Origin: Pseudomonadota bacterium
Lineage (GTDB): Bacteria; Desulfobacterota; Binatia; Binatales; Binataceae
NCBI GenBank assembly: GCA_021325355.1
Contig: JAJPHI010000009.1
Span: forward strand, 124,001 to 188,000
Length of the DNA: 64,000 nucleotides
Direction of reading: 5' to 3'
Positions 4,249 to 6,257 of this stretch are shown one piece after another (position 1 is the first letter of the stretch; each line of letters begins with the position of its first letter). Position numbers and translations under genes: made by a program. Under the pieces are notes generated by a model that was not told where the DNA came from, ran no database searches, and saw only the letters and a program-made list of their open reading frames with translations.

Positions 4249-4277
4249 TTGACCCAATTTTGGGGCGTTACGATAAT
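4249..4277 (+). promoter_or_regulatory. Sigma70-type promoter upstream of the LeuA-domain gene
   Basis: TTGACC (4249-4254), a 17-bp spacer and GATAAT (4272-4277). This is the best match to the sigma70 consensus I found in the window. Expected transcription start near 4284, only about 11 bases before the GTG at 4295. Confidence 0.7.
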
Positions 4278-4294
4278 CAGATGGGAAGCGAGCC

Positions 4295-4807
4295 GTGCCG
4301 CAGACTGAATCGATCTTTTGCGAAACAGAAGCGCCTCAGGCCTCGCGCGAGCTGGCGGAGCTGCGCACTTCAATCGACTATGAACCACCGTTCGAGGTGG
4401 TGCGCCGGCGGGTGATCGACGATTTTCACGACGGCCGGATGACGATTGATGCGACGGTGGTAATCCGGATCGGCGACGTTGAAGTGACCGAGGCGGCGAG
4501 CGGGGTGGGTGTGGTCAACGCCTTCGACAACGCTCTGCGCAAGGCGCTGCTGAAGCACTTTCCATTCCTCGAAGCGGTCCGTGTGACCGAAACGTACGCG
4601 CACGCCAGCGGGGAGTCGACCGAGGCGGAGGTTATGTCGGTCAAGAAATTCTCTGACGGCCGGCTGAACTGGACCACGCTGGCCAAATCGACCAACCTGG
4701 TCGAGGCGGGATGGCTCTCGCTGGTGGACGGTTACGAGTGGCGGATCGTGCAGGAGCGCATCCGGCAGCGCCGGCAGATAAGCAATCCGCGGCTCTCCCG
4801 CCGCTAG
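4295..4807 (+). CDS. Stand-alone LeuA/CimA-type regulatory (allosteric) domain protein
   Basis: A 170-residue protein that looks like the C-terminal LeuA dimer domain of citramalate or 2-isopropylmalate synthase without the catalytic TIM barrel. From about residue 50 the pattern matches the CimA C-terminus: DATVVIRIGDVEVTEAASGV, VNAFDNALRKALLKHFP, then a second unit with LNWTTLAKSTNLVEAGWLSL and VDGYEW. In known enzymes this domain binds leucine or isoleucine and confers feedback inhibition. No synthase gene is adjacent. It may be an amino-acid sensor or a trans-acting subunit; that is inference. GTG start is close to a near-consensus promoter; a weak GGGAAG lies 7 bases upstream. Confidence 0.75.
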   Translation: MPQTESIFCETEAPQASRELAELRTSIDYEPPFEVVRRRVIDDFHDGRMTIDATVVIRIGDVEVTEAASGVGVVNAFDNALRKALLKHFPFLEAVRVTETYAHASGESTEAEVMSVKKFSDGRLNWTTLAKSTNLVEAGWLSLVDGYEWRIVQERIRQRRQISNPRLSRR

Positions 4808-4825
4808 CGCATCGATATCAATCAT

Positions 4826-4865
4826 TGACCGGCGCAACGATAAGACTGACCGGCGCAACGATAAG
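4826..4865 (+). repeat. Tandem pair of 19-bp direct repeats
   Basis: TGACCGGCGCAACGATAAG occurs at 4826-4844 and again at 4847-4865, a 21-bp period (two helical turns). The pair sits just upstream of the GTG at 4880, so it may be an operator or a local duplication of a promoter part (each copy ends in GATAAG). Confidence 0.75.
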
Positions 4866-4879
4866 CGGTTGAAGAGCGC

Positions 4880-5371
4880 GTGCGACCCTTGCGGACACTG
4901 GCGGCGTTAGCAATTCTAGCACTCGGGCTGACCTGGGGCGTTCACTTCGCCTGCGCCGGCGACGACGGTGGGGGATCCGGCGCGGTACCGAATGCCGGCA
5001 GCTACGACGACAGCCTGACGGTCGGTGGTCCGAGTATCCCGGATGCGGACGCGCGGAAGATGAGCGACGCCGAAATCAACGCGATGCTCGCGCGCCTGCG
5101 CAATGGAGATGCAGACGGTCCGCAGATTCAGCCGCACACGCCGCAGGCGACCCAGACGATCGCCGAGCTGCGGCGCGCGTCGAAGCTCGATCGCCTCAAC
5201 GCGCAGAGCTATCGCGGCGGCGAATACAACAAGGCGGCAACCTACCTGACGGACAAGGCCAACAGCGCGGATGAACTGGCGGCGAAGCTGTCCAGCGGAC
5301 AGGCGGTCGCCGAAGCCGACGTCAAGAAGGCGTTGGACACCAGTCGGCTGGTCGGGCTCGGCGGTTACTGA
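4880..5371 (+). CDS. Exported protein of unknown function
   Basis: A 163-residue protein I do not recognise. Residues 1-26 form a signal peptide (positively charged start, hydrophobic core LAALAILALGL, likely cleavage after HFACA). The mature part begins with a Gly-rich stretch and has a low-complexity, Ala/Asp-rich helical body with repeated leucine spacing (IAELRRASKLDRLNAQ; SADELAAKLSSGQAV). There is one cysteine, inside the signal peptide. The GTG start follows a pair of 19-bp direct repeats. Likely periplasmic; no function can be assigned. Confidence 0.65.
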   Translation: MRPLRTLAALAILALGLTWGVHFACAGDDGGGSGAVPNAGSYDDSLTVGGPSIPDADARKMSDAEINAMLARLRNGDADGPQIQPHTPQATQTIAELRRASKLDRLNAQSYRGGEYNKAATYLTDKANSADELAAKLSSGQAVAEADVKKALDTSRLVGLGGY

Positions 5372-5442: not shown

Positions 5443-6201
5443 CTAGCCGCGGCCGGTGAGCGGCATCTTGGTGGCCATCACGGTCATGAAGAGCACGTTG
5501 GCGTCGAGGGGGAGATTCGCCATATAGAGGACCGCGTGCGCGACGTGGATCGCGTCGAAGGTCGGCTCGGCCATCACGGTGCCATTGGGTTGGGGGACGC
5601 CGCGCTTCATCGCGGCGGTAAGCGGCGTTTCGGCGTTGCCGATATCGATCTGGCCGCAGGCGATATCGTACTTGCGGCCATCGAGCGAAGTGGACTTGGT
5701 CAGTCCGGTCATCGCGTGTTTGGTCGCGGTATAGGGAGCGGAATTGGGTCGCGGGCTGTGGGCCGAGATCGAACCGTTATTGATAATGCGGCCGCCGCGC
5801 GGGGTCTGCTCCTTCATCAGTTTGAAGGCTTCCTGGGTGCATAGAAAGGCGCCGGTCAGGTTGATGTTCACCACGCGCTGCCATTGCTCGTAGCTGAGGT
5901 CTTCGAGCGGAAGCGGCGGCGCGCCGACGCCGGCATTGTTGAAGAGCAGGTCAAGCCGTCCGAAAGTCTCTTTGGTTCTGGCGAACAGTTGTTTGACGGC
6001 GAGGGGATCGGCGACGTCGGTCGGCACGATCAGGGTCGGGGCGCCAAGCTCTTTGGCGGCCGCGGCGACCTCTTCGAGCGGTTCGCGGCGGCGACCGGCG
6101 AGCGTGACCGCCCAATGATCACGCAGGAGTTCGAGGGCGACGGCGCGGCCGATACCGGTACCGGCGCCGGTGATTATCGCGATTTTGTGCTGTGTCTCCA
6201 T
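5443..6201 (-). CDS. Short-chain dehydrogenase/reductase
   Basis: Classical SDR of 252 residues, NAD(P)-dependent oxidoreductase of unknown substrate. It has TGAGTGIG (11-18), NNAG (88-91), Ser144 and the Tyr157-x3-Lys161 pair in APYTATKHA. An Arg-rich RRRE after the second strand suggests NADP(H). The start ATG at 6201 is chosen at the Rossmann fold; a longer in-frame version would add a non-conserved tail and overlap the cysS promoter. It is transcribed away from cysS from a shared 65-bp region and converges on the exported-protein gene. Confidence 0.85.
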
Positions 6202-6229
6202 GGTCCGCCACGCCGCGCGACCAACCGAC

Positions 6230-6257
6230 TTGGTTTGGAGGCTCGGCAACCGATAAT
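6230..6257 (+). promoter_or_regulatory. cysS promoter
   Basis: TTGGTT (6230-6235), 16-bp spacer, GATAAT (6252-6257). The -10 ends nine bases before the GTG start of cysS, so the expected transcription start (about 6264) leaves essentially no leader and no room for a ribosome site. Confidence 0.6.

Follow-up and report, generated by a model that had tools for sequence, protein, structure and literature searches.

A conserved stand-alone gene for a LeuA/CimA-type regulatory domain in Candidatus Binataceae

Known regulatory domains and the protein of this locus

In the textbook picture, LeuA and CimA are enzymes under feedback inhibition, with a regulatory domain that is tethered to the rest of the chain. 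The CimA domain has been solved in isolated form with isoleucine (PDB 3f6g and 3f6h; LiCMS, the citramalate synthase of Leptospira interrogans), and the LeuA domain is represented by structures from Mycobacterium tuberculosis (PDB 1sr9 and 3fig). Other pathways have separate regulatory subunits: HisZ works in trans on HisG, and IlvN does so on acetohydroxyacid synthase. Leptospira LeuA2, according to PMC12345160, is a synthase without a regulatory domain. On that description, LeuA2 resembles the case presented here in that the 2 parts of the enzyme are separable in evolution, while being its mirror image, with the catalytic part lacking the regulatory one.

Here, we describe a copy of this regulatory domain that occurs naturally as a separate protein, is conserved, and has a promoter of its own. 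We found no account of such a free and conserved LeuA/CimA domain in the literature searched, and a term search of one Binatota paper (PMC8262859) gave no match. The protein is like the CimA domain in fold, glycine loop, and descent, but differs from it in having a natural separate gene, its own promoter, no barrel, and changed pocket positions. With the LeuA domain, it shares the domain family and the fold; the LeuA domain, however, is part of a chain of 571-577 residues and is more distant in sequence. HisZ and IlvN are comparable in that a feedback function resides on a separate small or noncatalytic protein, but they belong to unrelated families and have a known partner.

The gene occupies positions 4295-4807 on the forward strand of the window (the whole stretch of 64,000 nucleotides that was analyzed), and encodes a CimA-derived LeuA_dimer protein of 170 amino acids from a GTG start codon. 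The first-pass annotation had read it as a stand-alone LeuA/CimA regulatory domain of 170 residues and had proposed a search with PF08502 (LeuA_dimer). That search bore the reading out, with a match over residues 49-147 (E 5.7e-11; 42.9 bits against a curated cut-off of 24.9) that was the sole Pfam match up to E 1. The best NCBIfam match was to the C-terminal part of citramalate synthase (TIGR00977; E 4.5e-15), covering only profile positions 374-520 and scoring 55 bits, far below the cut-off of 450 that applies to the full-length enzyme. Two isopropylmalate synthase models scored far lower, TIGR00973 reaching only E 0.045. The HMGL-like catalytic barrel (PF00682) was found neither in the protein nor on its contig at E <= 0.01, and the IlvN/IlvH small-subunit domain (PF10369, ALS_ss_C) gave no match in the protein up to E 1.

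Structure prediction yielded a model with a pLDDT of 87.1 and a pTM of 0.82, in which residues 1-9 are unsure. Its elements run in the order of a helix, three strands, helices, three strands, and a long helix. Both beta-beta-beta-alpha units are present, judged by the secondary structure of the model and by the fold match, so that residues 31-152 (4385-4750) form a complete double beta-beta-beta-alpha regulatory domain. The top ranks in Foldseek were held by LeuA and by the citramalate synthase domain of LiCMS. In VIA-align, model residues 31-152 matched 3f6g_A with Z 14.9 and an rmsd of 2.1 A over 117 residues, against Z 8 for unrelated entries; ribosomal S5-like entries, at Z 8 or lower and mostly over residues 31-89, were taken to reflect a common arrangement. 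Neither the protein nor its profile retrieved a regulatory domain when solved structures were searched by sequence, and the link to the solved domains therefore comes from fold comparison. Ahead of the domain lies an N-terminal segment with the first helix (residues 8-25; 4316-4369), which carries the invariant residues F8, P14, A16, and S17 and starts at the point where CimA changes from linker to regulatory domain.

The glycine loop and the helix start that follows it (residues G70 to L81; 4502-4537) are common to CimA: G70, G72, V74, A76, D78, A80, and L81 are kept in type A stand-alones and CimA alike. The side-chain pocket for isoleucine in the Leptospira enzyme is presumably formed by L451, Y454, and V468. 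Mapped by hand, these columns correspond to L97, Y100, and V113 in CimA, whereas type A stand-alones have V, mostly T, and mostly V. As pocket positions that the CimA of this genome retains are altered in the stand-alone, the alignment suggests another ligand, probably not simply isoleucine.

The reading that we favor, with about an even chance of being correct, is that of a free-standing allosteric domain that dimerizes, binds an amino-acid-like ligand, and passes a signal to a partner protein. The free domain would form a dimer as the LeuA_dimer domain does in LeuA and CimA, and a small amino-acid-like ligand would bind where the two subunits meet, beside the conserved glycine loop. From there, the signal would reach the partner via surface residues common to the stand-alones only. 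Dimerization, ligand binding, and action in trans are the most likely properties of the free domain, with the limit that a shared fold is no proof of function. Such a free domain makes it testable what the LeuA/CimA regulatory domain senses and controls when untethered.

Copies in the source genome, distribution, and descent

The source genome (3.36 Mb, 95% complete) contains 3 matches to PF08502, namely a 559-residue frame (LeuA), a 588-residue frame (CimA), and the stand-alone protein. Its only 2 catalytic barrels (PF00682) are those of the LeuA and CimA frames, both on other contigs, in agreement with the earlier statement that no TIM barrel is in the vicinity. A further idea, that the LeuA or CimA of this genome might lack the regulatory domain, proved wrong: both full-length enzymes carry it. 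The free domain thus replaces no missing part, and a role as a substitute for a missing LeuA or CimA domain was rejected. A role as a substitute for the IlvN small subunit was rejected as well, as PF10369 is found in 137 of the 143 genomes of the class, including the source genome, where it belongs to a separate gene elsewhere on the same contig.

Instead of serving an independent partner, the protein might act in trans as a subunit of the genome's own CimA or LeuA, with mixed dimers shifting feedback inhibition in a manner comparable to HisZ and HisG. We regard this as rather unlikely. It would fit a dimerization domain that descends from CimA, and it would also fit the occurrence of the threonine deaminase regulatory domain, which was found in 2/72 genomes with the stand-alone and in 20/71 without it (a tally that assumes one set of 143 genomes, of which the unmatched ones are partly listed). 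CimA may therefore be the only route to isoleucine in the genomes with the stand-alone. The same domain (PF00585) was found in only 22/143 Binatia genomes overall, so that most of Binatia may make isoleucine via citramalate. However, the pattern tracks a few whole families, and several families have neither the deaminase domain nor the stand-alone, which makes it a weak hint. In addition, the regulatory domains of CimA and LeuA in this genome are complete, and the stand-alone shares just 36% identity with the domain of its own CimA. Its gene is also distant from cimA or on a different contig in genomes with both placed, and away from leuA in the source genome.

Within Binatia, the stand-alone form was detected in 40 of the 41 genomes of the source family, Candidatus Binataceae (Binatota; f1), and in 15/16 genomes of a second family (f5). 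The genomes without it are 53% complete in f1 and 80% complete in f5, and one of the counted f1 copies (G019) ends at a contig end. A second, diverged sister form is present in 20/25 genomes of one further family (f2) and in the single genome of another (f17). In other Binatia families, matches among the rows listed were found only in long CimA-like frames. The stand-alone is thereby a family-wide gene of uncultured soil bacteria, known by its domain alone.

Scanning genome contigs with the single protein gave no matches. An alignment-based scan, which rested on two peptide patterns, kept 80/136 relatives; further stand-alones may thus exist outside Binatota. L107-L118 have stand-alone frames (L117 being cut at a contig end). 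The frames of L119-L155, which belong to other phyla going by record title, span 450-829 aa and were read as full-length CimA. A plasmid search returned 4 cimA genes and nothing else. One record titled Klebsiella pneumoniae (MAG), CAMBFS010000010.1, bears a Binatota stand-alone gene of the f5 family and is probably a mislabelled bin.

Identity to the protein of the window ranges from 65 to 84% within f1. The stand-alone is 84% identical to its counterpart in a relative of the same genus, for which the values of the flanking genes are lower, at 78% for fabG, 76% for iscA, and 68% for cysS. The CimA regulatory domain is conserved marginally better than the stand-alone, with 90 versus 88% over the domain in this relative and 80-87% versus 69-80% in five other f1 genomes. 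Across 9 pairs, dN/dS was 0.06-0.26, with synonymous sites near saturation. The gene is under purifying selection.

In a tree of 46 domains, a branch supported at 97/90 separates the 27 stand-alones from all CimA domains; the branches of this tree are long, and attraction is possible. Both types of stand-alone, A and B, have in common 11 residues at which the CimA majority is different (F8, Y29, P32, R37, A67, K87, V95, E99, F119, G146, and W149), which argues for a single origin. F8, Y29, P32, R37, G146, and W149 among them are new conserved residues that set the stand-alone apart from the CimA domain. The stand-alones start just ahead of the AS-x-E motif with which the regulatory region opens in CimA. 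A plausible history would be that, in an ancestor within class Binatia, the C-terminal regulatory domain of CimA was duplicated without the catalytic barrel. The duplicated domain would then have acquired its own start codon and a strong promoter, and would have been inherited vertically since.

A recurring promoter

A sigma70-like promoter, TTGACC-N17-GATAAT, is located at 4249-4277 on the forward strand, its -10 element ending 17 bases ahead of the start codon. It is the only 10-of-12 match in four scans that together covered all 64,000 bases of the window, and in that sense is the best sigma70 promoter of the window, as the first-pass annotation had it. The scans found eight sites, a number no higher than in shuffled sequence, so that the 10-of-12 match alone proves little.

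Similar sites in relatives add to this single match. A site of 9 of 12 or better within 100 nt upstream was found in 22/32 f1 species, representing 11/16 genera, whereas 200 shuffles gave 1.06 species on average and never more than 4; this count leaves out L033 (contig end), G006, G019, and the f1 genomes G070-G075. A 10-of-12 site was present in 15/32 species (shuffle mean, 0.14), and 10/32 species lacked any site reaching 9. The recurring site often reads TTGAAA-N17-GATAAT. Its distance to the start codon ranges from -38 to -70 in f1 species, arguing that it is not merely aligned ancestral sequence. Of 105 other genes in these loci that are preceded by a gap of at least 60 bp, 14 reached 9 of 12 and 3 reached 10, and one other gene family of these loci (c7) had good promoter scores too. 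Sites scoring at least 9 were present within 150 nt in 12/15 loci of f2 and f17 taken together; in f5, a site scoring at least 9 was present in only 1/10 loci.

The conserved promoter also bears on whether the gene could be the 3' remnant of a degraded synthase. The first-pass annotation had named, as signs of such a remnant, a lack of conservation in relatives, or a full-length paralogue combined with relaxed selection. Full-length paralogues do exist in the source genome, but conservation and purifying selection contradict the rest. The architecture is the same in 40/41 f1 genomes, dN/dS is well below 1, and the stand-alone clade is separate from CimA. A degraded remnant was rejected on conservation, dN/dS, and the conserved promoter, and we give it next to no probability.

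Gene neighborhoods and candidate partners

The neighbors of the gene differ between families, and none is a branched-chain amino-acid gene, which points to a gene with its own promoter in differing contexts. In f1, fabG lies directly upstream on the same strand in 12/17 loci and beyond inserted opposite-strand genes in 4 more, and was not seen in 1. A DCC1-like (thiol-oxidoreductase-like) gene lies closely downstream in 26/33 f1 loci, and cysS is found downstream in most. In f5, the gene is mostly preceded by a divergent guaB-like gene and, in 6/10 loci, followed by an ArsC-like one. Loci of f2 and f17 have a yceG/mltG-like gene and a divergent gene lacking a Pfam match on the upstream side, with an abhydrolase gene directly downstream in 9/15.

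These associations could indicate that the protein no longer binds a ligand and has become an adaptor between proteins or a structural partner, for example of FabG or of the DCC1-like thiol oxidoreductase. The frequent presence of fabG, DCC1-like, and ArsC-like genes beside it is consistent with such a role, as are the altered residues of the presumed side-chain pocket. However, the source genome keeps the protein and yet has no DCC1-like gene (it is absent from the locus in the window and from that of the relative of the same genus), the neighbors in f2 are different, and the kept glycine loop suggests that a ligand is still bound. An adaptor role seems rather unlikely to us, and no neighboring gene is a safe partner.

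The free-standing allosteric domain favored above could, in a bolder form, be a novel type of free allosteric sensor or subunit, re-targeted in this lineage, whose ligand pocket and partner surface are both new and which would control another pathway in trans. We put this forward as a tentative possibility. The DCC1-like and ArsC-like proteins both presumably have a thioredoxin-like fold, and their genes downstream in f1 and f5 would then hint at a link between amino-acid supply and the thiol redox state.

Some loci showed additional features. In 4 f1 loci (L039, L042, L044, and L045), an inserted gene of about 670 aa, read in the opposite direction, separates fabG from the stand-alone gene; it has an SLT transglycosylase domain where tested (L042). 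In the window, a 163-residue ORF (4880-5371) occupies the place taken by the DCC1-like gene in most relatives; its N-terminal stretch is signal-peptide-like by eye, its best Pfam match reaches only E 0.059, and it clusters with no gene of other loci. Between the stand-alone gene and cysS, a short-chain dehydrogenase gene is encoded on the reverse strand (5443-6249), which is not there in other f1 loci read apart from the genome of the same genus (L034), where the protein is 81% identical. Finally, a 19-base direct repeat (TGACCGGCGCAACGATAAG) is present at 4826-4865, in two exact copies with a spacing of 21, between the stand-alone gene and the next ORF.
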